From NCBI GenBank assembly GCA_024638265.1, contig JAHEKQ010000026.1, forward strand, positions 1-39,346: 39,346 nt of DNA. Reading direction: 5' to 3'. Below, one piece after another: positions 1-27,482 of this stretch. Origin of the DNA: Flammeovirgaceae bacterium (lineage in GTDB: Bacteria > Bacteroidota > Bacteroidia > Cytophagales > Cyclobacteriaceae). The translations under genes were made by a program, and so were the position numbers. The notes beneath the pieces were generated by a model, which was not told the origin of the DNA, searched no databases, and saw nothing but the letters and a program-made list of their open reading frames with translations. Each line of letters opens with the position of its first letter. The first letter of the stretch is position 1.

Positions 1-361
1 ATCAAGAAGCCCGAGGACGCCGCGCTCGTCGCCGAGCGCGTGCTCGGCGCGCTCGATCAGCCGCTCGCGGTCGCGGGCTCGGAGGTTCGGATCACCGCGA
101 GCATCGGGATCGCCGTCGCCGACCCCGTCTACAACGAGGCCGACGAGATCATCCGTGACGCCGACACCGCGCTCCACCAGGCGAAGTCGGCCGGCAAGGC
201 CAAGTACATGGTCTTCAAGAGCGAGATGCGCGACCGGATCGTCTCGCGTATGCAGCTCGAGCACGACCTCCACCGGGCCATCGAGCGCCGGCAGCTCTTC
301 CTGCTCTACCAGCCGATCGTCTCGCTCACGACCGGCGAGATCGAGGGCTTCGAGGCGCTCC
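1..361 (+). CDS. GGDEF-EAL (cyclic-di-GMP) protein, internal fragment, foreign to the rest of the window
   Basis: The reading frame is open from the first base. It shows the end of a GGDEF diguanylate cyclase domain (ASIGIAV, then DADTALHQAKSAGK) followed by the start of an EAL phosphodiesterase domain (LEHDLHRAIERRQLFLLYQPIV, here quoted only as its pattern LExDLxxAI...YQPIV, then TGEIEGFEAL). Such proteins make or degrade cyclic-di-GMP. The EAL motif ends at base 360, and the frame then reads seven unrelated residues into a stop at 382-384 instead of the usual basic/tryptophan continuation. Base composition is about 70% GC (43 of 60 in the first 60 bases), with a codon pattern typical of high-GC Actinobacteria, against about 45% just beyond base 420. 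Both ends are missing, the left by the window edge and the right by the join near 361. The domain call is secure; membership of this genome is doubtful. Confidence 0.85.
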
Positions 362-366
362 AGCAA
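358..366. other. Probable chimeric join between two unrelated genomes
   Basis: At this point a high-GC plus-strand EAL domain and a moderate-GC minus-strand TolC domain are both interrupted, each in the middle of a conserved domain. No insertion-sequence end, tRNA, integrase or target-site duplication is visible. Both frames stay open across the join by chance: the minus TolC frame runs without a stop to base 1, because GC-rich DNA rarely has stops. The exact point is uncertain by a few bases. A real recombination event is possible but less likely than an assembly or library artefact. Confidence 0.75.
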
Positions 367-921
367 AAATCGCTTAACGGCTGAAGGAAGAGCCGCACCG
401 TTTTCGACCCTCGACTCGATTACTTCAATCTGCCGGTCAAGGTCCTGGAAGATTTGCTCCAAAAGCTCAATCTGCTTTTCCGAAGCCAGGATACCAAAGA
501 ATAACTCGGATATAATACCCCTCGTCTGGTTATATTCTGTATCGGTCTCCAAGTCCTTTTTATGAACCATTGCCCTGTCAAGTTCATTCTTTATACCTAT
601 CCGATTGCCGCCATAAATCAATTGTTGAATTTCCAGGTAAAACCGGCTTTGAAGTTTTGGAATATCAACGGTTATCAGCGGGTTGTCCGGGAGATTTACT
701 ACTTCCGACTGGTAGGTCAACTGGCCATTGAGATTCAGCTGGGGCATCTTCCCAGATTTATTCAGGGATTCCATCAACAATAAGGACTCCTGATTGAGTG
801 ACTTCTGGGCAGCAAGCGGGTGCCTGCTTAGGGAGAGATCAATTGCTTCAGGGAGGGTAAGGGTATCAGCTCCCGCTATAAACACACCAATTGACAGGAA
901 GAAAGAGAATGTTAATTTCAT
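361..921 (-). CDS. TolC-family outer-membrane efflux protein, 3'-truncated at the join
   Basis: The ATG is at 921 and about 187 native codons are present. The protein begins with a signal peptide (MKLTFSFFLSIGVFIAGA) and then the classic TolC/OEP start, TLTLPEAIDLSLSRHP. Amphipathic helices follow, and the segment IESRVENGAALPSAV corresponds to the conserved NGVALPSD-type turn of the first OEP repeat. TolC-family proteins form trimeric outer-membrane exit ducts for tripartite drug and metabolite efflux pumps. A full protein has about 420-480 residues, so more than half is missing. The start lies 2 bp after the stop of tetR, so the two genes are co-transcribed; in Bacteroidota such a pair is usually followed by HlyD-type adaptor and RND pump genes, which would lie beyond the join. 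The ORF stays open into the foreign DNA, so simple gene callers may miss it. Confidence 0.85.
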
Positions 922-923
922 GT

Positions 924-1535
924 TCAGTTTCTTTTAATCGATTCAAGGATCAACTCGGGTATCAGTTTCTTTTTTTCCTCGAGGAATTGCATGTATTCCT
1001 TATCGTCCATCTGAAAAACCCGGGTCAATAAAGGTTGCGAGATCAGGGGAAAGACAGACAACGAAATCAGGTTTGACAATAAATGGGCAGGCTTAATCGG
1101 ATGGTACAGGCCCGTTTCTATCCCTTCACTTATTTGCACCATGAAACGTGAAGTTTTCATCCCTTCAATAGCCATTGACATAGAAGCCAGCCTTTCCGGG
1201 TTTTGATGTATTTCATTAAGGATAAATACGGGTATATACGCTTTGTGAGAAAACTCATCGATATAATGACTTACAAAATGGCTGAGTTTCTCCTCGATAG
1301 AATTATCACTGTTTAGTATCTGGATTAGCGCCGGGATAAACCTTGGGAAAACATCATCAAATATGGCGTCGAACAGTTGTTTTTTGTTTCTGAAGTAATA
1401 GTGAAGTAAGGCCTTATTAATTCCGGCTTCATCCGCTATTTCCTGCATTCTGGCGCCCGTCATACCTTTTCTTGTAAATACCTTCCTCGCCGCATCAAGG
1501 ATCAGCTCTTCCGAATCAACCTTAGTCTTAACCAT
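924..1535 (-). CDS. TetR/AcrR-family transcriptional repressor
   Basis: This 203-residue protein has an N-terminal TetR helix-turn-helix at about residues 9-55 (ILDAARKVFTRKGMTGARMQ, EIADEAGINKALLHYYFRNK, KKQLFDAIF). The C-terminal ligand and dimerisation domain is alpha-helical and rich in aromatic and methionine residues. TetR proteins repress promoters as dimers and are released by small molecules. It heads an operon with the TolC-family gene 2 bp downstream, so it very probably controls an efflux pump and its own expression. The inverted repeat at 1540-1557 lies five bases upstream of its start codon and is the obvious autoregulatory site. The ligand cannot be told from the sequence. Confidence 0.93.
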   Translation of the reverse strand: MVKTKVDSEELILDAARKVFTRKGMTGARMQEIADEAGINKALLHYYFRNKKQLFDAIFDDVFPRFIPALIQILNSDNSIEEKLSHFVSHYIDEFSHKAYIPVFILNEIHQNPERLASMSMAIEGMKTSRFMVQISEGIETGLYHPIKPAHLLSNLISLSVFPLISQPLLTRVFQMDDKEYMQFLEEKKKLIPELILESIKRN

Positions 1536-1539
1536 TCAG

Positions 1540-1557
1540 TTTAACCATTTGGTTAAA
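1540..1557. promoter_or_regulatory. Perfect inverted repeat, probable TetR operator
   Basis: The 18 bases TTTAACCATTTGGTTAAA consist of two perfect 8-base arms (TTTAACCA and TGGTTAAA) around a 2-base spacer. The element sits immediately before the tetR start codon. Size, symmetry and position fit a TetR-family operator for autorepression of the tetR-tolC operon. A half-like copy (AATGGTTAA on the minus strand) overlaps the start codon. Confidence 0.7.
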
Positions 1558-1602
1558 TGTAAGAATTGAAATTCTAATTGCCAAGTATTTTGGTGAAATG
1601 TT

Positions 1603-1626
1603 AAGTGGTTAAGTGGTTGAGTGGTT
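1603..1626. repeat. Octanucleotide tandem repeat, three copies
   Basis: Three successive 8-base units (AAGTGGTT, AAGTGGTT, GAGTGGTT) lie in the gap between tetR and the OmpA gene, just before the heptamer array. No function can be assigned. Slippage-prone short repeats like this may vary in copy number among strains. Confidence 0.85.
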
Positions 1627-1643
1627 CCGATATCCCTTTCCGG

Positions 1644-1739
1644 TATCCGCTATCCGCTATCCGCTATCCGCTATCCGGTATCCGGTATCCGCTATCCGCT
1701 ATCCGGTATCCTCTATCCTATCCTCTATCCTCTATCCTA
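1644..1739. repeat. Heptanucleotide tandem array (TATCCGC / TATCCGG / TATCCTC)
   Basis: I count 13 full 7-base units plus one 5-base partial unit. The third-from-last to last positions vary between GC, GG and TC. Read on the minus strand, the array starts exactly at the stop codon of the OmpA-family gene: the TAG is itself part of the repeat (TAGGATAGAGGATAG). Unit changes therefore do not change the protein. Together with the octamers it occupies most of the 200-bp gap between two minus-strand genes. It is not a CRISPR array, because the units are contiguous and there are no spacers. Confidence 0.9.
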
Positions 1740-3527
1740 CTTCGCAAGGACGGTAAACTCTACCCTCCGGTTCTGGGCTCTTCCTTCGTCGGTCTCGTTG
1801 GTTGCAATAGGCTTGGATTCGCCATAGCCCTTGGCGACAAGGCGATTGGTGCCAATACCGTTTTCTATCAGGTACTGAACTACCGATTCTGCTCTACCCT
1901 GGGAGAGGTCTTCGTTGTATTTGTCTGTACCGACCGCGTCGGTATGACCACTGATCTCTATTTGAAGAGTGGGATTATCATTGAGAAAATTCACCACTTT
2001 ATTGAGCTCCACAAAAGATTCTGACTTGAGAGTGGTCTTGTTGAAGTCGAAATAGATATTTTCCAGTACTACCGTAGTACCCACTTCGATTGGTTCGAGG
2101 TAGACATCCGCCACTGCCTGGTTCTCATCCTGTGAGATACTGAACGATCCGCTGGACTCCAGGTAGCCGGATCTGGAAGCCTGGACTGAGTAAGCCCCTT
2201 CCCTCTTTATCTCACTCTGATAAGTTCCGGGTGATTCAACTGACAGGATATCATCCAAGCCATCATTGACAACGATTTTGGTTTCTGGCAGCAATTCATT
2301 GGTTTTACTATCGTAGGTGTTGATAGTCACAACCATGGGTTTAACTACAGTTCTGAGCTTCAATTCTACATTTACAGTAGTATCGTTAAATACATCCTTT
2401 AGCGTGAAGGATTCCCTGGATTCCACATATCCCTCCTTTCGGGAAATCACTGAATAGGTTCCCTCACCTGGTAATGTTGTCTTGAATCCTGCCGATCCTG
2501 ACTTCAGGGTATCAATACCCCCTTCACCGGTATGGGTAACAAATACATCTGCCACGAGGGGATTACCTGAATCGTATTCTTTGACAATTCCTTCGAGGTA
2601 TATATGGATGTCCTTGGGAACTACCTGTAGAATATCAAGGTTTCCCCCATCAATCTTCTTACCCGCCATGGCCAGATAAATATTTCCTTCAGCATCAATG
2701 GATATATAGCCATCAAATTCAGTGGTATTGATAGGAGGTCCGAGGTTTTCAGGTTCAGACCAGTTTAGCCAGGTGTCATCTAACCGTCGAGAAACATAGA
2801 GATCAGCGCCACCCAAGCCGCCGGAGTTTTTACGATCCGATGCGAAATAAAGACTCTTATTATCGGGTGATAAAAATGGACCAAACTCATCCCATCCGGA
2901 GTTTATAGCTCCTTTAAGTTTTACGGGTTTGCTGAATTTGTTTCCGCTAAGTCGCTTGCTGTAATAAAGATCACTCCATACAACCCTGGGATTTGTACTG
3001 AAATAGATGATCATATGTTGCATGTCCGTAGACATCGTTGCCCCATAGAAACGGTTTTTATTCATCTCCTCGAAACCATCCACCTCAATTTTACGCGGCC
3101 TGGACCATCCATTACCCGAACGATTCGTAATACTGAAACCCGTATCATCTCTTCCGGCAGTCCCTCTTATAAATAATGTATTGCCATTATTGAGTACAGT
3201 AAAAACCTGGTTGCCATGATTCTCATTCAAAGGAGATTTTAAATGCTCAGCTGGACTCCAATTGCCACTTTCGTCCATATAGCTTACCCAAATGTCCTGG
3301 CTCCCCTGCTCACCGAATTTATTATCAGGATGGTTGGATATAAAATAATAGAGTGTCTTCCCGTCAGGGCTGATTACAGGAGCCGCATCATCATGCCTGG
3401 TGTTAATGCCCCCTTCCAGTTTCTGCATCTCATATTTACGGGTAATTTTGAGCTCTTGTGCTAGAGAGTCAAAGGAAACTATTCCCGCCAGAAAAATCAG
3501 GCTAATCGATAAGGATAATCGCGTCAT
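1737..3527 (-). CDS. Outer-membrane PD40/TolB-like propeller protein with OmpA C-terminal domain
   Basis: This 596-residue protein starts with a signal peptide (MTRLSLSISLIFLAGIVSFD...LAQ). Residues ~40-300 hold PD40/TolB-like beta-propeller blades, recognisable by SPDGKTLYYFIS, SPDNKSLYFASDR and GGADLYVSRR. Residues ~310-470 hold two carboxypeptidase-regulatory-like modules (GTYSVISRKEGYVES; GAYSVQASRSGYLESSG). The C-terminal ~110 residues are an OmpA peptidoglycan-binding domain: NIYFDFNKTTLK, ISGHTDAVGT, the YNEDLSQGRAESV helix and the NRRVEF end. The OmpA domain holds the outer membrane to the cell wall, while the propeller probably binds another protein or sugar. This architecture is common in Bacteroidota envelopes. 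It stands alone, reading away from the plus-strand operon that starts at 3698. Confidence 0.92.
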   Translation of the reverse strand: MTRLSLSISLIFLAGIVSFDSLAQELKITRKYEMQKLEGGINTRHDDAAPVISPDGKTLYYFISNHPDNKFGEQGSQDIWVSYMDESGNWSPAEHLKSPLNENHGNQVFTVLNNGNTLFIRGTAGRDDTGFSITNRSGNGWSRPRKIEVDGFEEMNKNRFYGATMSTDMQHMIIYFSTNPRVVWSDLYYSKRLSGNKFSKPVKLKGAINSGWDEFGPFLSPDNKSLYFASDRKNSGGLGGADLYVSRRLDDTWLNWSEPENLGPPINTTEFDGYISIDAEGNIYLAMAGKKIDGGNLDILQVVPKDIHIYLEGIVKEYDSGNPLVADVFVTHTGEGGIDTLKSGSAGFKTTLPGEGTYSVISRKEGYVESRESFTLKDVFNDTTVNVELKLRTVVKPMVVTINTYDSKTNELLPETKIVVNDGLDDILSVESPGTYQSEIKREGAYSVQASRSGYLESSGSFSISQDENQAVADVYLEPIEVGTTVVLENIYFDFNKTTLKSESFVELNKVVNFLNDNPTLQIEISGHTDAVGTDKYNEDLSQGRAESVVQYLIENGIGTNRLVAKGYGESKPIATNETDEGRAQNRRVEFTVLAK

Positions 3528-3646
3528 TCTTTGATTTAGGTCAGTTACAAAAATTCAAAATTCAATTAAGAAAACCAATTTGTTGGATTAGTTCAGCAAA
3601 ATGTATTCCAATTAGAATTTATTTGGGTTGAAACGCTTTAAAAAGC

Positions 3647-3673
3647 TTGTGATTGGTTTTTTTCTTATATTTA
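3647..3673 (+). promoter_or_regulatory. Possible Bacteroidota-type promoter for the seven-gene operon
   Basis: TTG at 3647-3649 and TATATTTA at 3666-3673 resemble the -33 TTTG and -7 TAnnTTTG boxes of Bacteroidota sigma-ABfr, with a 16-base spacer that is shorter than usual. If this is the promoter, the upstream ATG at 3653 cannot be the start and translation would begin at the GTG at 3698. The match is imperfect. Confidence 0.35.
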
Positions 3674-3697
3674 GTGACAAGTACCTATTGTTCAACC

Positions 3698-6600
3698 GTG
3701 AAGTCTATTATCTATCGCCTGCTCGATGTCGAGCCGCAGCAAGCCCCCCGTGTTTTCTTAATGCTCGGAATGGGATTTTTCATGGGTATTTTCCTCGCTA
3801 CTTATGATGTGGCAGCAGCTTCGATTTTCCTACTCAATTTCGCCGATCAACTACCTATTGCGATACTACTCAGTGGATTTGCCGGTATAGTTCTGACCTT
3901 TATATATAACTTTTTCCAGAGCCGCATTCCATTCAGAATCCTTGCCATCGCCACCATGCTATTCATTGTTGGTGTTGTGGCAAGCATAGAGTTCATTGAC
4001 CCGTTTTTACCAGACCCCTCCTATAAATACTTTGGGGCATTTGTACTTGCCCTACCCCTGAACTACCTGACACTACTCATATTCTGGGGAACTTTCGGCA
4101 GATTGTTTAACCTGCGGGAATCCAAAAAGATCATTGGAAGTATTGATACGGGCCAACTTATTGCCTCTATCCTTGCCCTGTTTTCAATTCCGCTGATTCT
4201 TCAATACCTGGAAACCGAACAATTGTTCTTGATAAGCCTAGGCAGTTCTGTCGGTGTATTTGGGATGATCTTCGTCATTGCACTTTCCGGAAGGCTTATT
4301 AAACAAACACGAAGAGGCAGAATCGGATACAGTAAGCTGCTCACTTCCAAATACCTGGCTCTGATGGTGGGATTTGTTATCCTCTCGATGATTGCGATCT
4401 CATTTGTTGATTTTGCCTTTCTCCGCGCTACAGAACAACAGTTTGATGAAAAGAATCTACCCAACTTCCTCTCCCTGTTTGAGGCGACCGTGGTTATTTT
4501 CTCTTTCCTGTTCCAGACCTTTGTCACGGACAGGATTATTTCCTTGTACGGACTTAGGGTTGCCCTCATCATTAACCCCATATTGATTAGTGGGTTTACT
4601 CTCATAGCAGTGGTCGTTGGTTCTCTATTGGGATATGAGAAGGCAACCAGTGAGAATTTTATCTTCTTCTTCATCATTATTTCGATGAGTAAACTGTTTA
4701 TTGATTCCCTGAAAGATGCACTCGACGGGCCCTCTTTTAAACTGTATTTCCTCCCGGTTGATTCAGTAGTCAGGTTTGATGTCCAGACCAAGATTGAAGG
4801 GGTGGTAACGGCATTCGCCGGGCTAATGGCCGGTGCATTGATACTCCTCATTGAAAACACTGAAGGCCTTACACTTCTATTCATAACCATTTTTACCATT
4901 CCACTTCTGGGTGCCTGGTACTTCATTACCAATAGGATGCATGGCGGGTACAAGACAACGCTGCAAGAGACCCTTATTCGAAATAAGCAGCAGCAGAATA
5001 TCGATGTAAGGGAGGAATTCTCGGTAAACCAGGTGCTTGAAAATGAACTACAGTCCAGTGAGGCAGCCAATATCATCTACAGTCTCAAGTTGATGGAACG
5101 GTTGGAACCTGCCCTTTTTGAGGACGCGATCATACATGAGCTCAACAGCTCTTCACCGGAGGTTAGGGAGTTTGCAAAGGCCAAATTGCGTGATCTGAAC
5201 CTGCAATATGACGGCAACTCAGATATAAAAGAGCTGGTACAAGGTGCCCTGGATGATGTCGAGGATCTCGATGTTATGGAAGTAACTCAACTGCAACTTG
5301 AGAAACTCGGAAAATCCCTGGACAAGTCGGACAGGATTACGGCTGCCAGGCTTCTGAGGACCCACACCAACCAGAAGACCATTTTCCTTTTACTTGAATT
5401 ATTAAGGGATATCGACGAAGACGTAAGAATGGAGGCTATTATTACCGCACGAAAGGTGAAAAAGCCTGAAACCTGGACCGTATTAATCGATATGACTGAC
5501 TCCATCCGTTTTGGTCATGCTGCTACATCCGCACTCATTGAAGCAGGGGAAGAAGCGATGCATAACTTGGAAATGGCATTCCACAAGTCTGCCCAGCGAG
5601 ACTCGGTAATGATGAAAATCATTACTATTATCGGCCGGATTGGTGGACAGAAGGCAATTGATTCGCTCTGGCACAAAATAGACTACCCTGATAAGCGAAT
5701 TGCCTCTCAAGTACTCATCTGGCTTCGGTACTTTAACTACCGTGCTACCAGGGAAAGGGAACGCAACGCCATTATGGAACTCCTGGATGATGACATTGCC
5801 AAGGCAATCTGGAATATATCGGCGATTGAGGAGCTACCGGACAGGGAAGAATTCAAATACCTAAAGGAAGCGTTGGAAGAGGAACTGGCAGCTAATTACG
5901 ATCACATTTTTATGCTCTTGAGTATTCTCTACGACCAGGAATCTATACGGCTGGTTCGTGAAAACATAGAGACCGGGACCTCTGAAGGAATTGCATTTGC
6001 GCTTGAACTCATGGATATATTTATCGATAAAGAACTGAGGGCTCACCTCTTCCCTCTTTTCGATGACCTAGATCCTAACGATAAGCTGATCCAACTCCAG
6101 GAATTCTTCCCAAGGGAGGAATACACACCCCGTGAAGTGCTTAATTTCATCCTCAACCGGAATTTTGACCAGGCCAACCGCTGGACGAAGGCCTCTGCTC
6201 TTTATTGCATGGCGTTTATCTCTGACTTCAAGGTCACCAAAGCCATGGTTGCTCAATTATTCAATAACGACTATCTGCTACAGGAAACTGCTGCCTGGGT
6301 GATATATCATAAAGAGAGAAGCATTTTTGAAAAAGTAACAAAACGACTTCCCGAAGAGGATAAGAAATACCTCGAAGAATCCATTTCCAGGAATCAGCTC
6401 ATAGAAGGACTGGATGACGGAGCCTTTCTCAGTATAGAAATGGCCATGTTCATGAAAAATATCCCGGTCCTCTCTGGAATTAAAGGAGTGATGCTCTGTG
6501 ATCTGGCCGACAAGATGAATGTAATCCAACTGGCGCAGGGTGAAGAATATGATCTTACCGAGAAATTTGACAGTAAACCCGTACTGGTAATGGCCGAAGG

Positions 6601-15338: not shown

Positions 15339-18300
15339 ATGAACCTATTTATACTAAAACTAAGGAAATCATTTATTGCGGTAACACTGCTTTTTTCCTT
15401 GCTGGTTCTTACCAGTGCAAGTAGGGATTGGGCCAATCCCACTATCGATGTAGCCACGGTGGCCACTGATAACTCGTACATTGAGGTTACTTTCAGTGAG
15501 GGGGTATTCAACAGCACTGGTGCTGCACTATCGAATACCATAGGTACTGAGTTTAATTTAAATTACAGCGACGGTGGTTCAGGCGTAGCTGTAACAGTTT
15601 CATCCATCAAGCAAAGTGATGGAAGTACCGACCCGGCAGGTGGGGAAACGGTGCTCAGGTTCTTATTAAATGTTACAGGTACACCTACAGGGGCGGAAAC
15701 GGTTGAAATCGTACCCGTAGATGGCAATTCTGTCTTTGATACAGGTGGTACAAATCCAATGGCTGGTACACAAACTACTGGTGTGTTGAATATGGAGGAT
15801 GAAGCGGAACCGACAGTTACAGGACTCAATTTTGTTAATAATACCACGCTAGTCGTAAGTTTTAATGAAGAAGTGGACCAAACCACTGCTGAAGCTATTG
15901 GAAACTACTCTTTAGATAACGGTATAACCGTAAGTGGGGCAGTGAAATCCGGTTCTGATGTCACTCTGACCGTCTCGGATATGTCTGCTCTCAGTGAAGG
16001 GACAGACATAACAGTTACCGTGATCAACGTTACAGATCTTAACAGCAATGTTGTAGACAATGCAAATGACCAAGCTACTACAAGTGTAGACAATGTAGTT
16101 CCGGGATTCAGTAATCTGAATGTTGCAGGAAATAATGCTTCTGCAACAGTCACTTTCACAGAAAACGTATGGGCAACGGTTAACCGGACTGGTAATATTG
16201 ATGAAACCAACCTGGAAGTTACTATTTCCAGTGGTACGGCAACCCTCCAATCTTATACTATAAGTCATACGGGAGGTTCCAATACAGCCACCATTAACCT
16301 TACTTTAAACGGTGTCCCCGATGGTAATGAGATCTTGACGGTTTCACCATTTTCAAATAGTGATGCATTTGACGGCAATGGCACGAATATTCCAGATGCC
16401 GCTGATATAACGGCCAATCTTAATGATGAAACGGATCCTGGATTCCAATCTCTCACAGTAAATGCCGCCAACACCCAGGCCACCCTAACATTTACAGAGG
16501 TGGTTTGGGCGAATAATGACATGACCGGAGACCTTGTGGATGCTGACTTCGATGTTTCTATTACGGGTGGTACCGCAACCTTGACAAGTAGTACCATAAC
16601 ACATACCGGGGGAACTAATAGCCTGACAATAGATCTCACCCTAAGTGGGGTAGCCGATGGCAGTGAAGTACTCACCGTATCTCCTTCAGCCAATAACAGG
16701 GTATTTGACGATGCCGGATTGGATGTACCTGACGCCGACGAGATTACACAAAACCTTAACGATCTGACTCTACCGTCAATCAATTCGGTGGTTGTAGCGA
16801 CAGACAATTTATCAGCCCTTATTACCTTTTCAGAATCTGTTTCAGGATCCAACAGCAGTGCAACTTCCATTGTTGAGGCAGACTTGAATGTGCAAATTAC
16901 CGGTGGTTCAGCCACGCTCAGTTCATTCACCGTATCACATACGGCGGGAACAGATAATGCCACCATCAATCTAACTCTGAACAATACTCCCGCTGACGGA
17001 AGCGAATTACTGACTGTTGGCCCTGCAGATGGAGCTTCAATTTTCGACCTCGCCTCCCCTACCGGGAATGCTATGGATGCCGGACAATCAGCAAATGATA
17101 ACCTGGATGATCGAAAACCGGCAACTATATTGAGTTCTACGCTCGATACCGAGAATGCATTTATCGATGTGTTTTTTAGCGATGGAGTATATTCTTCAGG
17201 GGGTTCAGGAGCGCTCGGACCGGGAGCATTCAGTGTAAACTTCCTGCAAAATGGGGGTGCTGCAAGTGATATTACCATATCATCTGTTACAAAAACAGAT
17301 GGCAATACGGCCACTGGGGGAGAAACTGAACTCAGATTGAATTTGAGTATTACAGATGGCCCTCCATCAGGTGTAGAATCTATCGAAATTAAGCCTGCCT
17401 CAGCAACTTCCATCTTCGATGATGACAGTGTAACGCCTAATCCAATGGCGGATACCCAATCAGGAGGAGTTAAGGTACTCAATGATAAGCTCGCCCCATT
17501 TGTAACTCCATTTGAATTTGTTCTCTATGACGCTGTAGGAACAGATTCCGATACCATCAGGTTCTTTATTTCGGAAGATTTGCAGATCGCCGATGGAAAT
17601 CCTTTAACTGGTTTTACACTTTCCCAGGCAGCAACCGGCTCATCATGGAATGCGACTACCAGGCAGGGAAGATTTACAGCTCCTGCCGGCACATGGAATT
17701 TATCATCCACCATATCTTATACAAGTGGTGGAGTAGGCAATATAATAGACCTTAACAATAATGAAATGGCTTCCTTTGGTGCTACCACCCTGGCAGCACC
17801 CGGGCAGGTAAATTTAAGTCCTGGAGATATTGTTTTTACTTCCTTTAACTCCATTGTAGATCTGGGAGGCGATGATGATTTCGTCCAGTTCTTATTGTTA
17901 AAAGATGTGGAAGACGGTACTAAGATTAATTTTACTCGCAGAGGATGGTCTGGCACACAATTTACAACCAATGCAGAACAAACGGTTGTATGGACCGCCT
18001 CCGGATTTACTTACGCCGGTACGGAAATTACCATAACGGACTTTGAAATCGATCAGGGAGGTGGAGACCAGGTACTGGCATACCAGGGAGAAGTTAGTTC
18101 ACCTACGTTCCTAGCAGGAATTATGATTAATGGAAGCTGGCAAGGAAGCATGTCTGAACCTAGTTCAAATGAAAGTCAATCAGAAGTTCCTACCGGATTA
18201 ACCGATGGTTCGTTTTCAGCAATCGCCAGCTCTAAGAATGCGGGAGCCTACAACATACCTACAGAGACTAATACCGGTACGGTTAGTTCACTAAGAGGAG

Positions 18301-21300
18301 CTATTTCATCAATTTCAAATTGGGATGATGACGACAATGCAGGGAATGTACCATTCAGATCAGATGGGATTAATTTTGACCTACCTCCTGATGTTGACAG
18401 TTATTCCCCCACAGATGGTGACATCGTTAATCCAACATTGGCCGCAACAAGTTCAGAAATTACCATTACATGGAATGCAGACATACAGGCGGGAACAACG
18501 GGGAACATTGTACTGAAAGAGAACGGTACGCCGGTACATACATTTACCGCCGGCGGGGCAAATACTACCATCCTAGGCACTAATCTGACATTAGATCTGG
18601 CTGGAGTAACCTCACTCCTGCCGCTAACCCATGGCTCTACCTATACGCTGGAGATTCAATCCAACAGTGTTACCGATGTTACCGATGGGAACCTAAATTA
18701 TCCGACCATAGAAAATTATGACCTTGTGGTGGATGGTGTTGCGGCAAGTATCCAAACGGCCACCGCCGAAACTGACCTTCCGACCTACGAAGCATATGTC
18801 GCGGTAACATTCGATGAGGGCGTTTGGGGTGATGCGGCAACAAGCACTCCTATTACAGAAACAGATTTTTCCGTCACAGCTTTTAATGATAATGGAGGAC
18901 GTATAACAGGGGTCACGGTAAGTGATGTAAAACTTACCAATGACCTGAACCCGGTAGGTGGAGAATCATCCTTCAAACTTATCCTTGATCTGACACCGGA
19001 TCTTGCATCCGGAATTGAAGATTTCGTGGTATCTGTGGTAGCCAGTTCAGTCTATGATGAAGCGGGAAATGCAACTCCCGATACAGAAAACACCGGATCT
19101 TTGATTTTGAAAGACACTTATCCACCAGAGATTCAAACCACTCCTACCCCAGTTGTAATTGCAACAGGGGCTACTACATTTTACATAGACGTAACCTTTG
19201 ATGAAGGTATCTGGGGGAATGCTGGCAATAGCCAACCAGTGACTGCATCCGACTTCGACAGGGTATTTGTCGCAGGTCCCCTTACCGCTCTTAATATCTC
19301 ATCAGTCAAAGCCCCGGACAACAGTGTGGAGGGTTCGGCTTCTGCCTTGGTTGGAGGTGAAACCACCGTAAGGGTATTCCTCACCGGCGCCGATGGTCCA
19401 CCTGATGGAACAGAGACCATAGAAATACTTGCAGTGAATGGCGCAATATTCGACGATGCAGGTAACAGCACGGTAGGCACTGAATCAACAGGTGCATTAA
19501 CGGTAGAAGACACGGTAAAACCTGACTTCTTCTCAGCAGATGTTGATCTCGACAACCGATGGATTGATGTCACCTTTGCAGAAGGAATCTTTACAAATGA
19601 CGGTCCTGATCCAAGTCCCCCCACTGGCGGAGTAACAGCTACTGACTTTACTCTTACCTTCGCACAGAACACGGGCACTGCTACTGCAGCGACCTTGATC
19701 TCTGTGAAACTACCGGACAACGCGGACTCTACTCTGGCTACTTCTGCGTCCGGGGGAGAAAGTACATTCAGATTCTATATCGATGTTACAGGAACACCAA
19801 ACGGACTTGAAACAGTCACCATAACACCGCGTGACGGCCTGGCAGACAAATTCTGGGATTTTTCCAATAATGGAAACGATGTAACCGCTACATCTGGACC
19901 CATTAATCTTCAGGATAACGTACCACCCGCGCAACATACCGTATCATGGACCGTACTCGAAACATATATTAATGGAGCCAATCAGAATTCCGTGAGTTTT
20001 GAGATTACGGGTGCTGAAGACCAGTCCACCTACGATTGGGTCATAACGGATACTACTACTCCCACCCCATTAGAAATTACAGGGACTGGAACCATTTCTG
20101 GTTCCAGTGCTACTATTTCCGGAATTGATGTGGGAGCGGCTGGACTTATAGATGGTAATATAACAGTAAGTGTGATATTGACGGACAACAGTCCTAATGG
20201 AAATCCAAATACAGCAGAAACAGATATCATAGTTAAAGATGCAACAGCCCCGTCAAGCCCCACCATTTCAGATGTCAGCAGCAATGGCGGAACCGTTGTA
20301 GTAAATCGTTGGAATTCTACTAATACTGAGCTGCTAGTTACTGTTCCGATTGCTAATGACGCATCCCTCCAAAACGGTTCCATTGAAATCCTTGCAGATG
20401 TTGGGGGTGGATTTGCATCCGAATTTGGACCTGTCAATATACCCACTGTAAATACGGATCAAATCATCCCAATACCTGCAGCAACATTTGAAGGTTTTGA
20501 TAGTGGCTTGATAGACGGGGATAATGTCTCGTTCAGGATTATTATGCGTGATGCATTTGACAATTCAACGCAAAGCCCCACAGCGGCTGATTTCATGCTG
20601 ATTGACCAGACTTCGGCTGGTGCATTTACGGTTGGAAATGTAATTGCAAGTGGTGGTAATGTTGTTGCGGGATATTGGAACAGCACGAACGGTAATATTA
20701 ATATTGATGTACCCATTGCCAACGACCAAACGCTTGATCAAGGATCGATTCAAATACAAGCCCGAGCCGGTGCCGAACCATTGGAAAATTTAGGCGCTCC
20801 GGTAACAATCGGAGGTGTAAACACCACTCAAACCGTTACAATTGATGCTGCCACTTTTGAAGCAATGAGTGCGGGGCTCCTGGAAGGAGAGGTTATTACG
20901 TTTACTGCAATCCTATTTGATTATGGTGGAAACCCGGGAACACTTGGTACAGAGTCTACAACGACAATTATCATTGATCAAACGGCCCCTACCCAGTTAA
21001 CCACAGATCTTGCCCAGGCAAGGGGTGGAAACGAATTTCTCAACTACTATAATAGCACCAACACGAGCTTTGAAGTAACTGTCCCCATAGACAGTGATCC
21101 CACCCTGGATGGCGGATCAATTCAACTAAGGGCAAATGTGAACAGTGGAGGATTCGAAGACCTTGGCTCACCTTTTAGTATCGTCACTATTGATGTGGGA
21201 ACTAATAAGGTTGTATCAGTAAGTGATGCTGACTTTGAATCACTGGATGGCGGATTGGTTTCAACCAATGCATATAGTATTGAAATTACAGCCACCGTTA

Positions 21301-24300
21301 CGGATGCCTCCGGTAATAGTACTCAATTTTCACAATCAACAAACGTCATTGCCTTTGATGAAGTGGAACCCCTGGTAAATTCAATTGTCAGGGATCCATC
21401 CTTCTCAAATCCCACCAAGGAGATTTCTGTTCGGCTTGACGTTACATTCTCAGAAGACGTAATAAGTGTGGATGTTGGTGATTTCACCTTGTACAACGTA
21501 GGTATATCACCTGACCCTACTATTTCACTTGTAACTGGCTCGGGTACAGCTTATGAGGTGACAGTCGACGGCCTGGAGAATCGTGAAGGAGATGTGGGTG
21601 TCCACCTCGTACAGGGAAACAGTCCGACTATTACAGACCTTGCTGGTAATCCTTATACAGATGATTTCGACCTGGCTGACGGTGCCGAATTCTTTGTAGT
21701 GGATAATACCCCTCCGGGTGCACTGACCTTTGTTGCAGGTGATAACAACGTAGCCTTCCCTGTAGCCGGCGACCTTTCCATAACATTTACTGAGGACGTA
21801 CAGATTGTTGTACCCGCTGATATTCGATTACGATATACTTCGGATGATACAGACATACCATTCAGTGCCAATGTAGTCGGTGATCAACTAATCATCGATC
21901 CTACTTCTAATTTGCCTGACTCAACGGGCGTATATGTAGAAGTGTTGAACGGAGCTATCACGGATATTGCCGGCAATATTTATATCGGCGTAAACGATAA
22001 GAATGGATGGAATTTCAGGACGTACGGTCCTCCCAAAATCACTTCTGTCAGTCCCATTGCCTGCATACAAACGCCAATTACTATTATTGGACAGAATTTT
22101 GCCTCCTACCCCGGAACCGATCCTTTACAAAGCGCGGTGACAAATGTGGAGTTTTGTGATCCATTGGGTGGTAACTGTGTATCGCAGACTTCCAATATCA
22201 CTATTGTTTCCGATTCTGAATTAACGGTGGTAGTGCCCAATAATGCACCCAGTGGTCAGATTCGATTGACTAAGGCACAGCAAAATATTGTTTCACTTGG
22301 AACAAACTCTCAAACCTCAACAATTTCCGGAGTTTCAATACAAACCGAGACCGGACCTTCATTTGCCGATCTTGTAGCTACCGGACCATTTAGTGGTGGA
22401 GACGGATATGATGCCAATGTATGTAATAACGGAACCGTAATTACCGCAGATGCACAGGTGACCATTACCGGGGGTATTACTGCACAGAATGGAATGAATG
22501 ATTACCTGATTGTTTATGATGATGATGATGGTGGTCCCGCTCCCGATCCTGATGTCCCATTTTACGATAATGGTACTACCTTCCAGATTGACCCTCCATT
22601 TAACGGAGACAATATCATCAAACTTGTCAGTGTTCGGGATAATTATACTTCCTGTTTTGTTCCTTCAGGTAATATTCGTACCGAAGGAACGCTAGGTGGA
22701 CAGGTGGATATCAAGGAATGGATCAGGACAACATTGGACGCAGGGGGTATTGATAATGACGGCAATACTCTTGGAGAAATTGAAGTTCTATTATCTGATA
22801 ATACTACCTATCCAAACGGAGATATTGACCTCTCAGATCCTGTAATTATGAATGTGGTTCCCTCTGTGGCAGGGGATGAAACAGGAGTTTCATGGGATGT
22901 TAGTAATGGACCTTCCAGCGGTGGAGGAAGCTTTCAAACTTCCAGCACGATATTACAGCCTACTTACAGGGTAAGCCTTTCTGATGTAGCATTCCCACAA
23001 CAATTCAGGGTGAGAATTACATCTGATGACCCGGCTGATCCAAATCCTTGCGAAACGGTCAATGATGAACTGGAAATTATATTTATCTCCGATCCAAAAG
23101 CCAACCCGGGCAGTAACCAGGTATTGTGCCTCAATGACAACCTCGCCCCTCTCTCTGCTATTCTTACAGGTGGAGCTGATGGCGTAGTTTGGAGCAGGAA
23201 TGCCGGAAGTGCAGCCAGTACTTTTGATGGAACCTGGGGATTCACGACCGATGGTGGCACTACCTACCTGGAAACTTATACTCAGCAGGACGGCGTGGAT
23301 CCGGATCCTGAATATAAGCCCAGTCCACAAGAAGAAACAGCGGGAACTGCCCTGATCGATGCTGATCCTACCGCATTTGGAAATGTTCCTCAGAATAATC
23401 CTTCAACCCTTACTCTTGAAGTTGTTGCCAATCCTGTAACCAACTTTGTACCGGATGTGGATCTGTGTTTAGGTGATGAAAACGTGCTTTTCTCTGTTAA
23501 TACCGCAACAAAACAAAGTACTTATCAATGGACACTCGGTTCAAATCTGGAACTTGTAGCAGGGGGAAGTTCCAATGCCATCCTGGTCAATATCCTGAAA
23601 GCCGAGCTGGAATTTGATTATTCCAACGAGGCAAACGGGCCTTTCCAACTCGGTGAAGAAGTAATATTCACGGATATCGAAAGTGAGCAAGTAGGACGTG
23701 CGGAGATAACAGATATTACAGACAATGGATCTACAGGAACCATACGTGTTCGGATGATTACAGAAACAGATCCTGATCCGGCTGATGAAATAGTACTCAC
23801 CGGTTCTAATTCAGGGGCTTCAGCTAATATCTCCAGTGATATTACCGTGATTGACCCTGAACCGGCACAGGACTTTGCCGAGACTTCTATTACCGTTGTT
23901 GAAACCAGCGATTTGGATGGTTGTGTGGCCACTCCGTCAGTCATCAATATCGATATGTATGATCGTCCTTTTGCCAGGTTCAATCCCAGGAGGAGTCACT
24001 CTATCACGGATGAAGTCCCCTACCCCCTTGAGTTGACAGATGCTTCAGGTATTGCCTACGCAACTGGTATTGAAGGGCAAACCCCTTACATTTCATTCTC
24101 TGGAAGTGGTGTATTGAAAATCCGACAATCCGGAGAAGACAATTACTTCTTCAACTCCAGCGAGATGACCGAAGACGATCTCGGTAAGCATAAAGTGAAC
24201 TGGAGAAGGGTATTCAATTACGGTATCTCAGGACTAGGATGTAGCAACACGGGAACTAAGACTTTCACTGTTAATGCTGCAACAAATAATATTATCGGGT

Positions 24301-27300
24301 TGAACCTGGAATACTGTGAAAATGACATCATTACCAGTGCACTGGAACCTCAGCTGCTCCAGGGAGAAGAATTTGTTCGCATGTACATTAAGATTGGGAA
24401 CACAGAAATCCCGCCGGAACCCTATGTGCAGGGTAATACCCCTGATCAATACACCGGGTCAGGTTATGGCCTTCTGTTTGATCCGGGCCTCTTACCAGCA
24501 GATGCTAGCGACGATGAGTATTTCTTCGATCCAAGGGTAGCCGCACTCAACTTTACTCCCGGTAAGAATAACCAGGATGAAGTGATTGCCGTGAAAGTTG
24601 AATTCGAATTCAAGAAAGTGGATGAAACACTGGATGTTCTGAACCAGGATTTATCCATATTCGAGCAACCTGAAATTGAATTCAATTTCGACGGTTCGGA
24701 TAACCAGGGCTTCGTAGTTACTCCTTCTGAAGAGTTTATTACTTGTGACTATGATAAGAGCCCCTGGGATAGTGATCCAATTCTGTTGAGACCGACCAAT
24801 ATTGCCTCCAGTAATCCAAATACTGAATTCAGGTTTACATATGAGGTAAGGTATCCTGAAAAGAATCCGGATTTACGAGGTGCTGTTCCGGATACGGCAT
24901 TTACGGTACTGTCTGATGAAGAGCAGATCGCAATTTATTTCAACGACGCGGATGCCAGTGATCCACGATGGGAATTCGATCCCACTTTGATCGATACTTC
25001 CAACCCGGATTCGGTGGCACTCGACGAATATGTTGAGGTACGGGTTACATACAGGTATACACTTGGATTACCTCTTGGGTCAGAGCTAACCTCTCTTTGC
25101 GAGAGTGTGGTCTCCAAGGTGATCAGGGTTTATCCTGAGCCTCCCAAACCGGAAATACGTGAGATTATTTCCCAAATGATCGTCAGCCAGGTTTGTGTTT
25201 CAGACGAACAAATAGGCATCGAAATCGATTCCCTGGCAGCAGGAAATACCATCTCTGCAGTCGTAAACTGGTGGGATGCAAAGGATCTCGTGGGAACTGA
25301 TCAGACTACTGAAACCGGTACTCAATTCAATCCTGAGATTGCCGCACTTTCATTTGGAAAGAATAATTACTGGATGAGACAGGAGTTCGTATACTGTCAT
25401 AGCGATACTCTGGAATTCTTCTATGAAAAACTGGAGCCTTTTGACTTTGAAATTGCAACGCAATGCCTGAACGGGGATCCTGTCCTTGTCAACGGTGATC
25501 CGCCCAGTAATGCGGTCCAAAATTCAGGATATCCCAACTGGAATGTTTTTGATGTGGCACTGGCTTCAGATATTACACAAACAGCCAGTACTGATACTGC
25601 TACACTGATCGTTAACCAGGGAGGATTGTATGACGTCACATACAACGTGATCACAGAGAATCAATGTCCAGCGGAAATTACAAAGAGACTGGTATTTGGT
25701 GACATTGTAGAGGTGGATGGAGATGAGTTTGAGAGTTTTGATGATGACGATGGTGGATGGACCAGTGTATTTCTTGAGTCTACCGGTGAATTAGTTCCCA
25801 ATATAATTTGGGACTATGGTACACTCAGCAATGCAGGAGGTACACTCCAGGGCTTAGTCGCCGACCGTGGGAATGTTTGGGGTACCAGGCTGGAGAAACA
25901 GGGGATAAACAAGCCCCTGTGGTACAGAACCACTGAAAGTGATGTGGATGAATATAGTTACCTGTACTCGGCATGCTATGACTTCTCCAATCTCGACAGG
26001 CCTATGGTTGCCTTTGATCTGCTTACCAAGACCTTAACAGGATCGGATGATGGTTTAATACTTCAGTATTCCACTGATATGGTATTCAGTGATGAGACTA
26101 CCTGGACTACCGTGGTAAGTACCATTAACGGACAATTGTCAGGGCTCAACTGGTATAACGCCACAGGCCTTGGACCATTGAGCTTACCCGGACTGGATAA
26201 CCAGTTTGGCTATGGTTGGAATGATGGCAGTGAAAACCAAGCTCCTGTCTGGCAGGAAGCCAAACACGAATTGTCAGCGACGAAAGGCGATACTGTGATA
26301 TTCAGATTTATAGCAGGTACAGAGCGTTTTGCCGGTTCTCAAAGCGAGAATGATCCTGCCGGATTCCTTATAGACAACTTCTTTGTCGGAAACAGGACAC
26401 GAACAGTTCTCCTTGAGAACTTTACCAACGATTCACAAGTTGCATCCTTGCTTGCTGATGTAAAGGAGGAAAATGACAGTATCAGGAATTTCATTATCAG
26501 GAAAAATGGTACTTCTGAAAATCCTATCTTCAGCAATCCGGAAGTAGTAGTCATTAACTATCGTACAGGATTCCCTAATCCTCTTGACGATATTTACCTG
26601 GATAATCCGGCAGAAGTTGGGGCAAGGGCTCAATACTATGGAATTAGTAACGTACCCCAATCCCTGCTTGATGGTGGTGTTACCTACGATGGTGTAAATA
26701 TTGCAAGGGGTGTGTGGAATAGCTTTGGAGAAATAGCTTATGGTAAGCGCACTCTAAGACTTTCTGAAATTGAGATTGATGCAGACATTGAAATTAATTC
26801 CGAAGGTGAACTTGTGGTATTACCGAGAATTATACCTAATCGTGATATTGATGGCGATGCGGTGCTTCACATCGCGGTTGTAGAAAAAGGAGTCACACCT
26901 GAAGAACTCCAGATTGAGAATTTCAATACCAACGAGGACTCGGTTAGCTATGTCTTCAAGAAAATGCTTCCCTCTCCAAGTGGTTATAGATTCAATGGTG
27001 ATCTCGATGAAGGCACCCTTTACCAACCCCCTACTGGGTTCAAATGGGCAATCTCCAATTTCTACGGTCCCGGCGGTCCAACTCCTGGAGATCCTACATC
27101 TATTGAAGACATGTCTGTTATAATCTTTGTACAAGATGATACGGAGGGTGCAGAGAAGCAGATTTTCCAATCGGCAACCTTTGATGTGACTCCTTTCAAC
27201 GTCATAACAGGCCTCGACCAGGAAGTTCAGAATAAACTGATTTCCCTCTACCCTAACCCTGCTGATAAGCAGACCAGGTTGGTCATGCCATATAGAGCCC

Positions 27301-27482
27301 GTGAGGATCTGACGGTTAGGCTTTATGATAACTTCGGGAAAGAAGTATACCGTGGTAGAATAGCCAAGGGAGAATTTACGCTCGATATAAACTCGACTAA
27401 GCTCTCAATCGGCATGTACCAGGTAATCATAGAAGGAAAAGATGGTGCGGTGGGTATGAAGAGGCTTATTGTAACACACTAG
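15339..27482 (+). CDS. Giant T9SS-secreted surface protein with many Ig-like repeats (4,047 residues)
   Basis: After a signal peptide (to ~residue 28) the protein has at least three repeat families. Family 1 has about 125 residues and five copies near 34-157, 595-718, 1135-1261, 1261-1394 and 1394-1528 (pattern IDVTFxEGxW/F ... GGExxxR ... GxExxxI). Family 2 has about 113 residues and three copies near 254-594 (ISHTGGxNxATINLTL). Family 3 has about 120 residues and three copies near 1640-2010 (NSTNxxxxVTVPIxxD). A non-repeat beta domain lies at ~825-1018, two SwmB/Big-like modules near 2010-2230, and an IPT/TIG domain from ~2231. The cysteine-containing C-terminal half ends with a jelly-roll-like module (~3456-3680), an Omp28/thioredoxin-like segment (~3686-3850) and a type A T9SS sorting domain from ~3967 (LYPNPADKQTRL ... 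GMYQVII). The latter targets it through the T9SS to the surface. Probable role: adhesin or long surface filament forming the outermost part of the operon's machinery. Confidence 0.9.
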   Translation: MNLFILKLRKSFIAVTLLFSLLVLTSASRDWANPTIDVATVATDNSYIEVTFSEGVFNSTGAALSNTIGTEFNLNYSDGGSGVAVTVSSIKQSDGSTDPAGGETVLRFLLNVTGTPTGAETVEIVPVDGNSVFDTGGTNPMAGTQTTGVLNMEDEAEPTVTGLNFVNNTTLVVSFNEEVDQTTAEAIGNYSLDNGITVSGAVKSGSDVTLTVSDMSALSEGTDITVTVINVTDLNSNVVDNANDQATTSVDNVVPGFSNLNVAGNNASATVTFTENVWATVNRTGNIDETNLEVTISSGTATLQSYTISHTGGSNTATINLTLNGVPDGNEILTVSPFSNSDAFDGNGTNIPDAADITANLNDETDPGFQSLTVNAANTQATLTFTEVVWANNDMTGDLVDADFDVSITGGTATLTSSTITHTGGTNSLTIDLTLSGVADGSEVLTVSPSANNRVFDDAGLDVPDADEITQNLNDLTLPSINSVVVATDNLSALITFSESVSGSNSSATSIVEADLNVQITGGSATLSSFTVSHTAGTDNATINLTLNNTPADGSELLTVGPADGASIFDLASPTGNAMDAGQSANDNLDDRKPATILSSTLDTENAFIDVFFSDGVYSSGGSGALGPGAFSVNFLQNGGAASDITISSVTKTDGNTATGGETELRLNLSITDGPPSGVESIEIKPASATSIFDDDSVTPNPMADTQSGGVKVLNDKLAPFVTPFEFVLYDAVGTDSDTIRFFISEDLQIADGNPLTGFTLSQAATGSSWNATTRQGRFTAPAGTWNLSSTISYTSGGVGNIIDLNNNEMASFGATTLAAPGQVNLSPGDIVFTSFNSIVDLGGDDDFVQFLLLKDVEDGTKINFTRRGWSGTQFTTNAEQTVVWTASGFTYAGTEITITDFEIDQGGGDQVLAYQGEVSSPTFLAGIMINGSWQGSMSEPSSNESQSEVPTGLTDGSFSAIASSKNAGAYNIPTETNTGTVSSLRGAISSISNWDDDDNAGNVPFRSDGINFDLPPDVDSYSPTDGDIVNPTLAATSSEITITWNADIQAGTTGNIVLKENGTPVHTFTAGGANTTILGTNLTLDLAGVTSLLPLTHGSTYTLEIQSNSVTDVTDGNLNYPTIENYDLVVDGVAASIQTATAETDLPTYEAYVAVTFDEGVWGDAATSTPITETDFSVTAFNDNGGRITGVTVSDVKLTNDLNPVGGESSFKLILDLTPDLASGIEDFVVSVVASSVYDEAGNATPDTENTGSLILKDTYPPEIQTTPTPVVIATGATTFYIDVTFDEGIWGNAGNSQPVTASDFDRVFVAGPLTALNISSVKAPDNSVEGSASALVGGETTVRVFLTGADGPPDGTETIEILAVNGAIFDDAGNSTVGTESTGALTVEDTVKPDFFSADVDLDNRWIDVTFAEGIFTNDGPDPSPPTGGVTATDFTLTFAQNTGTATAATLISVKLPDNADSTLATSASGGESTFRFYIDVTGTPNGLETVTITPRDGLADKFWDFSNNGNDVTATSGPINLQDNVPPAQHTVSWTVLETYINGANQNSVSFEITGAEDQSTYDWVITDTTTPTPLEITGTGTISGSSATISGIDVGAAGLIDGNITVSVILTDNSPNGNPNTAETDIIVKDATAPSSPTISDVSSNGGTVVVNRWNSTNTELLVTVPIANDASLQNGSIEILADVGGGFASEFGPVNIPTVNTDQIIPIPAATFEGFDSGLIDGDNVSFRIIMRDAFDNSTQSPTAADFMLIDQTSAGAFTVGNVIASGGNVVAGYWNSTNGNINIDVPIANDQTLDQGSIQIQARAGAEPLENLGAPVTIGGVNTTQTVTIDAATFEAMSAGLLEGEVITFTAILFDYGGNPGTLGTESTTTIIIDQTAPTQLTTDLAQARGGNEFLNYYNSTNTSFEVTVPIDSDPTLDGGSIQLRANVNSGGFEDLGSPFSIVTIDVGTNKVVSVSDADFESLDGGLVSTNAYSIEITATVTDASGNSTQFSQSTNVIAFDEVEPLVNSIVRDPSFSNPTKEISVRLDVTFSEDVISVDVGDFTLYNVGISPDPTISLVTGSGTAYEVTVDGLENREGDVGVHLVQGNSPTITDLAGNPYTDDFDLADGAEFFVVDNTPPGALTFVAGDNNVAFPVAGDLSITFTEDVQIVVPADIRLRYTSDDTDIPFSANVVGDQLIIDPTSNLPDSTGVYVEVLNGAITDIAGNIYIGVNDKNGWNFRTYGPPKITSVSPIACIQTPITIIGQNFASYPGTDPLQSAVTNVEFCDPLGGNCVSQTSNITIVSDSELTVVVPNNAPSGQIRLTKAQQNIVSLGTNSQTSTISGVSIQTETGPSFADLVATGPFSGGDGYDANVCNNGTVITADAQVTITGGITAQNGMNDYLIVYDDDDGGPAPDPDVPFYDNGTTFQIDPPFNGDNIIKLVSVRDNYTSCFVPSGNIRTEGTLGGQVDIKEWIRTTLDAGGIDNDGNTLGEIEVLLSDNTTYPNGDIDLSDPVIMNVVPSVAGDETGVSWDVSNGPSSGGGSFQTSSTILQPTYRVSLSDVAFPQQFRVRITSDDPADPNPCETVNDELEIIFISDPKANPGSNQVLCLNDNLAPLSAILTGGADGVVWSRNAGSAASTFDGTWGFTTDGGTTYLETYTQQDGVDPDPEYKPSPQEETAGTALIDADPTAFGNVPQNNPSTLTLEVVANPVTNFVPDVDLCLGDENVLFSVNTATKQSTYQWTLGSNLELVAGGSSNAILVNILKAELEFDYSNEANGPFQLGEEVIFTDIESEQVGRAEITDITDNGSTGTIRVRMITETDPDPADEIVLTGSNSGASANISSDITVIDPEPAQDFAETSITVVETSDLDGCVATPSVINIDMYDRPFARFNPRRSHSITDEVPYPLELTDASGIAYATGIEGQTPYISFSGSGVLKIRQSGEDNYFFNSSEMTEDDLGKHKVNWRRVFNYGISGLGCSNTGTKTFTVNAATNNIIGLNLEYCENDIITSALEPQLLQGEEFVRMYIKIGNTEIPPEPYVQGNTPDQYTGSGYGLLFDPGLLPADASDDEYFFDPRVAALNFTPGKNNQDEVIAVKVEFEFKKVDETLDVLNQDLSIFEQPEIEFNFDGSDNQGFVVTPSEEFITCDYDKSPWDSDPILLRPTNIASSNPNTEFRFTYEVRYPEKNPDLRGAVPDTAFTVLSDEEQIAIYFNDADASDPRWEFDPTLIDTSNPDSVALDEYVEVRVTYRYTLGLPLGSELTSLCESVVSKVIRVYPEPPKPEIREIISQMIVSQVCVSDEQIGIEIDSLAAGNTISAVVNWWDAKDLVGTDQTTETGTQFNPEIAALSFGKNNYWMRQEFVYCHSDTLEFFYEKLEPFDFEIATQCLNGDPVLVNGDPPSNAVQNSGYPNWNVFDVALASDITQTASTDTATLIVNQGGLYDVTYNVITENQCPAEITKRLVFGDIVEVDGDEFESFDDDDGGWTSVFLESTGELVPNIIWDYGTLSNAGGTLQGLVADRGNVWGTRLEKQGINKPLWYRTTESDVDEYSYLYSACYDFSNLDRPMVAFDLLTKTLTGSDDGLILQYSTDMVFSDETTWTTVVSTINGQLSGLNWYNATGLGPLSLPGLDNQFGYGWNDGSENQAPVWQEAKHELSATKGDTVIFRFIAGTERFAGSQSENDPAGFLIDNFFVGNRTRTVLLENFTNDSQVASLLADVKEENDSIRNFIIRKNGTSENPIFSNPEVVVINYRTGFPNPLDDIYLDNPAEVGARAQYYGISNVPQSLLDGGVTYDGVNIARGVWNSFGEIAYGKRTLRLSEIEIDADIEINSEGELVVLPRIIPNRDIDGDAVLHIAVVEKGVTPEELQIENFNTNEDSVSYVFKKMLPSPSGYRFNGDLDEGTLYQPPTGFKWAISNFYGPGGPTPGDPTSIEDMSVIIFVQDDTEGAEKQIFQSATFDVTPFNVITGLDQEVQNKLISLYPNPADKQTRLVMPYRAREDLTVRLYDNFGKEVYRGRIAKGEFTLDINSTKLSIGMYQVIIEGKDGAVGMKRLIVTH

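Follow-up and report, generated by a model that had tools for sequence, protein, structure and literature searches.

A foreign GC-rich tip, very probably an assembly artefact, on a contig of a Flammeovirgaceae draft genome

Introduction

In a chimera formed by template switching in PCR, unrelated templates are fused abruptly where they share a short stretch of identical bases. The left end of contig C54 resembles such a chimera in its sharp join at a short identity. Inter-genome misassemblies of the kind treated for metaMIC (PMC9661791) and GUNC (PMC8201837) likewise join fragments of two genomes within coding sequence. C54 differs in having a foreign part that is only a tip of about 352 bases at the very end of the contig, and in that its correct arm has survived on a separate contig of the bin. 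The GUNC article counts misassembly, described as relatively rare, among the sources of error in metagenome-assembled genomes (PMC8201837). The outer 300 bases of contigs are ignored by metaMIC (PMC9661791), which puts a join at 353-360 at the border of its reach.

The host locus at the join is an efflux cluster of the type TetR-TolC-HlyD-ABC/ABC-2. Up to the first ABC gene, it resembles the cluster of 11 of 11 relatives examined in gene order and orientation. It differs from theirs in that the copy is split over two contigs and that the TolC gene of C54 is truncated, very probably by an artefact.

The window, the whole stretch analysed, is the entire contig C54 of 39,346 bases. It is one contig of a draft genome, G000, of 3,633,475 bases in 173 contigs, with 97.57% completeness and 3.05% contamination.

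Composition and coding content of the left end

The G + C content is 0.682 in bases 1-352 and 0.44 thereafter. The highest value among 38,642 other windows of 352 bases tested in C54 is 0.551, and no GC jump comparable to that of the tip is present in the rest of the contig. The counts that had drawn attention to the break, 43 G/C in bases 1-60 (0.717) and 27 in bases 421-480 (0.450), are exact. For the first 3000 bases a single change point of GC is best placed at 364, with a gain in log-likelihood of 38.7. The frame of bases 1-360 has a third-position GC of 0.967, the TolC frame one of 0.537. The original prediction placed the join near base 361; it holds, but is refined to 353-360 (possibly 361) by the match to contig C134 and by homologues of the foreign gene. 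Coordinates of the features are given in Table 1.

Table 1. Features at the left end of contig C54
Feature	Position	Strand	Remarks
Foreign fragment	1-360	+	End of GGDEF domain, then the ~32 opening residues of EAL domain; open at both ends
AGGCGCTC, 8 bases present in donor and host	353-360		Join interval, very probably of a false join; C54 compared with the end of C134
Match to C134	353-450		Identity over 98 bases with the terminus of C134 (22832-22929)
TolC-type outer membrane efflux protein (OEP), N-terminal ~190 residues	352-921	-	Pfam OEP/TolC, E 2.7e-13; cut by the join
TetR-family regulator	924-1535	-	TetR_N, E 3.6e-17; 2 bases upstream of TolC

C54 and the host allele on C134 disagree over bases 1-352, and bases 353-360 are common to donor and host. 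The domain sequence encoded by bases 1-360 breaks off at the E-A-L codons of the EAL domain. Proteins with GGDEF and EAL domains are enzymes of c-di-GMP. The GGDEF match in the tip covers residues 5-67 (E 2.8e-9) and passes the Pfam cut-off with 37.4 bits against 23.8. The EAL match (E 8e-6) covers profile positions 3-34 of 236 only and scores 25.8 bits against a cut-off of 31.3, because the tip holds only a fragment of the domain. As had been proposed from the sequence, the EAL domain and the TolC domain are both cut at the join, with Pfam matches on the plus and minus strands, respectively. Fortuitously, no stop interrupts the TolC frame of C54 within the foreign DNA, and the frame extends up to the contig end, reaching 307 aa (1-921, minus strand).

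The EAL and GGDEF matches of the tip are the only ones in the draft genome. No match to EAL (PF00563) was found among 58 relatives, and 6 of 14 control genomes gave one. GGDEF (PF00990) is found in one of the 58 relatives, a genome of the same family. In a search of the draft genome with window bases 1-1200, bases 1-352 have no other match, by which the tip is ruled out as a second locus of this genome.

Origin of the two parts

The right part of C54 had been read as Bacteroidota and the left part as actinobacterial. For the right part the assignment is supported. Matches to Por_Secre_tail number 33 in the draft genome, 32 of them above the cut-off, with one match within C54 (27246-27473); in the controls the domain is matched in one of 14 genomes, a Bacteroides, with a score below the cut-off. 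C54 to the right of the join fits a Bacteroidota-type genome, a reading that these domain counts support.

For the left part, the relatives come from many phyla and neither they nor the tree establish the actinobacterial assignment. Short exact peptide patterns scanned against genome contigs yielded 31 loci. No donor genome was found among them: the best loci are 45-51% identical, none exceeds 51%, and they are distributed over many phyla. An exact 24-base search of viral contigs gave no match to the tip. The tree comprises 31 rows, namely the query and 30 of 33 compared loci; three loci with fewer than 90 aligned residues were dropped. The query falls in a mixed set of 11 rows with Actinomycetota, Cyanobacteriota, Planctomycetota, Acidobacteriota and four rows without an assigned group. 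Rows of Trichodesmium are sisters of the query with weak support (93/78). The nearest rows by tree path belong to Phycisphaerae, and the nearest rows are not labelled actinobacterial. Two of the relatives, Bacterium HR12 and a member of Nanopelagicales, have a similarly extreme third-position GC, both with 0.98, which makes an actinobacterial donor possible. Among 198 genomes drawn from the host phylum, the host included, the 120-residue fragment is matched in 16 of the 197 others (best match E 3e-24, 43% identity), and none of these 16 belongs to the family or order of the host.

The host arm on contig C134

Contig C134, 22,929 bases in length, is the only other contig of the draft genome matched by window bases 1-1200. 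Its host allele matches C54 from base 353 onward. The rest of the TolC gene lies on C134 in the same frame (L002, positions 822-1598), and the two pieces form a single frame of 415 aa with no stop. Because 98 bases are identical and TolC is completed in frame, the host chromosome is taken to run from C134 into C54 at 353. Beyond TolC, C134 carries on the same strand genes for HlyD, two ABC ATPases and two ABC-2 permeases; neighbouring genes overlap by 4-34 bases or stand no more than 9 bases apart. The TetR gene of C54 is the first of a seven-gene cluster, TetR-TolC-HlyD-ABC-ABC-ABC2-ABC2. The joined TolC is matched in 24 of 58 relatives. In the best-scoring 11 of these 24, in which gene order was checked up to the first ABC gene, the order TetR-TolC-HlyD-ABC is present with the same orientation in every case. 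The suspicion of a chimeric assembly is supported by these data, as the cut TolC continues at the end of C134 in the same genome and in the order of all 11 relatives.

The join and its microhomology

The donor end was compared with 33 loci, 28 of which have alignments that reach the EAL codons. Past these codons the homologues read xR in 28 of 28 cases (xRW in 27), where C54 reads QQK from 361; the donor therefore ends at about 360. Eight bases are shared at the join. With bases taken as independent, two sequences joined at random would have 8 or more in common at the junction with a probability of about 7e-5, and among 200,000 random pairings of both sequences no one-sided run as long as 8 occurred. 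A shared run so improbable at a random join favours short-homology joining over blunt ligation.

The absence of a mobile-element signature, reported from the first inspection, was reproduced: no mobile-element domain is present in the seven frames scanned with Pfam, no tRNA in bases 1-4000, and no convincing repeat at the join. One imperfect direct repeat of 19 bases (79%, 292-310 and 1503-1521) straddles the join; both copies sit away from it, and repeats of this kind are often due to chance. At the side visible in C54 nothing indicative of insertion by a mobile element is observed, and the foreign DNA starts at the contig edge.

Contig ends of the draft genome

Both ends, 1500 bases each, of 61 of the 173 contigs were surveyed (122 ends). 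Six ends consist entirely of N and were dropped, leaving 116 readable ends. Exact end-to-end overlaps are present in six pairs, five of 121 bases and one of 120. The right end of C54 overlaps contig C22 exactly over 121 bases. Among branches with both partners sampled, within 1500 bases of contig ends, there are five in which a contig terminus matches another contig slightly inside its end. Their shared stretches are 120, 120, 120, 114 and 98 bases, the shortest being that of C54 and C134. In three of the five (C53R/C9L, C58L/C18L and C2R/C25L) the arms are 85-96% identical without gaps; these branches probably reflect differences between strains of the population that was assembled. Another is a tandem-repeat end. 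Only the C54/C134 branch has unrelated coding arms, with 29% ungapped identity and GC of 0.68 against 0.46. With a GC of 0.68 the left tip of C54 ranks first among the 116 readable ends, the runner-up having 0.594. The supposition that foreign tips are common in this draft genome is not borne out, with one such case in five sampled branches.

The second most GC-rich sampled end (0.594) is the right end of contig C7. Its last ~200 bases (L080, 1289-1500) have a GC of ~0.63, contain G-rich low-complexity stretches and follow a PolyA_pol/HD gene. This end may be a further tip of foreign or repeat sequence. The sampled start of contig C12 holds 10 consecutive N, which suggests that scaffolding was applied to the assembly.

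Interpretation of the join

There is very little room for doubt that bases 1-352 of C54 are an artefact, a false extension of the contig by sequence of an unrelated, very GC-rich bacterium. C54 is an ordinary inter-genome chimeric contig, and its tip is not a biological feature. The two sides of the join belong to different genomes, as is evident from the jump in GC and third-position GC, from 58 relatives with no EAL match and a single GGDEF match among them, and from the host gene order. The intact alternative, the correct adjacency of the host side, is present elsewhere in the data, at the end of C134 with its completed TolC. The join interval holds a short shared sequence (AGGCGCTC), as a template switch would leave it.

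In the course of events proposed as the most likely, a donor strand ending in ...GAGGCGCTC, at the EAL codons, would have re-primed during library amplification on AGGCGCTC in the host tolC gene and given rise to a chimeric molecule. The assembler may then have followed this molecule at a thinly covered spot, and the genuine path would have been left as a separate contig end. We infer the wet-lab step and the thin coverage from the contigs. The shared stretch of 98 bases, the shortest among branches and adjacent ends, would agree better with a pair of ends that lie where coverage dips than with adjacent nodes of the assembly graph. A length of 352 bases is much to expect of one short read; it agrees better with a merged read pair or with a donor contig that was assembled on its own. 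It also counts against the artefact that a few genomes of the host phylum encode proteins similar to the fragment and that one relative of the same family has a GGDEF match.

The false join may also have been made purely by computation, a scaffolder or gap closer having merged a short donor contig ending at ~360 with a host contig starting at ~353 over the 8-base overlap. This course, counted within the confidence given to the artefact as a whole, is possible rather than probable. An overlap of 8 bases could be used by such programs, scaffolding is hinted at by the N run in C12, and the overlap with C134 is shorter than the 120-121 bases of adjacent ends, as though neither host end had a continuation and both had been passed to a scaffolder. 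Scaffolders, however, require linking pairs, and such pairs could arise here only through chimerism or wrong mapping.

A real rearrangement in a minority of cells, by which a GC-rich c-di-GMP gene from another phylum was fused into tolC through microhomology and with no mobile element, is highly improbable. The same 8-base homology could mediate end joining in a cell, but the same bin holds an intact TolC cluster in the order of 11 of 11 relatives, and the join has no mobile-element domain, tRNA or convincing flanking repeat. Moreover, EAL in this genome amounts to this scrap, with none in 58 relatives, and the foreign part lies at the contig edge with no far junction visible. That the tip of C54 is genuine and the end of C134 chimeric is so improbable as to be nearly negligible. 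Nothing was found in favour of it; the C134-C54 join is carried by 98 shared bases. Against it, joining C134 restores the TolC frame of 415 aa and the common gene order, while the tip of C54 yields two truncated genes on opposite strands.

Consequences for annotation

The significance of the artefact is one of data quality only. Doubt had been raised about the trustworthiness of the contig and its organism label; its extent is narrow, foreign sequence making up about 352 of the 39,346 bases. From the tip alone, an automatic annotation could ascribe c-di-GMP enzymes to the organism; at the threshold used, 58 of 58 relatives are without a match to EAL and 57 of 58 without a match to GGDEF. A gene caller could also report the 307-aa frame as a plausible-looking but false TolC fusion protein. 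The remedy is to trim bases 1-352 and to treat C134 and C54 as neighbours through bases 353-450.

Other features of the contig

A tandem array of the 7-base unit TCCGCTA with ~16 copies occupies window positions 1626-1737 and is intergenic. A 20-base pattern, TATCCGCTATCCGCTATCCG, gives 12 partly overlapping matches on four contigs of the draft genome and none in 38 relatives. For a second family, GTGGTTGAGTGGTTGAGTGGTT, 20 partly overlapping matches are found on nine contigs, and again none in 38 relatives. A degenerate stretch of the second family (1601-1626) is situated just ahead of the TCCGCTA array in C54. Dispersed short arrays seem to be special to this lineage. An open reading frame of 4047 aa at 15339-27482 (plus strand) ends in the Por_Secre_tail domain, which is associated with type IX secretion.
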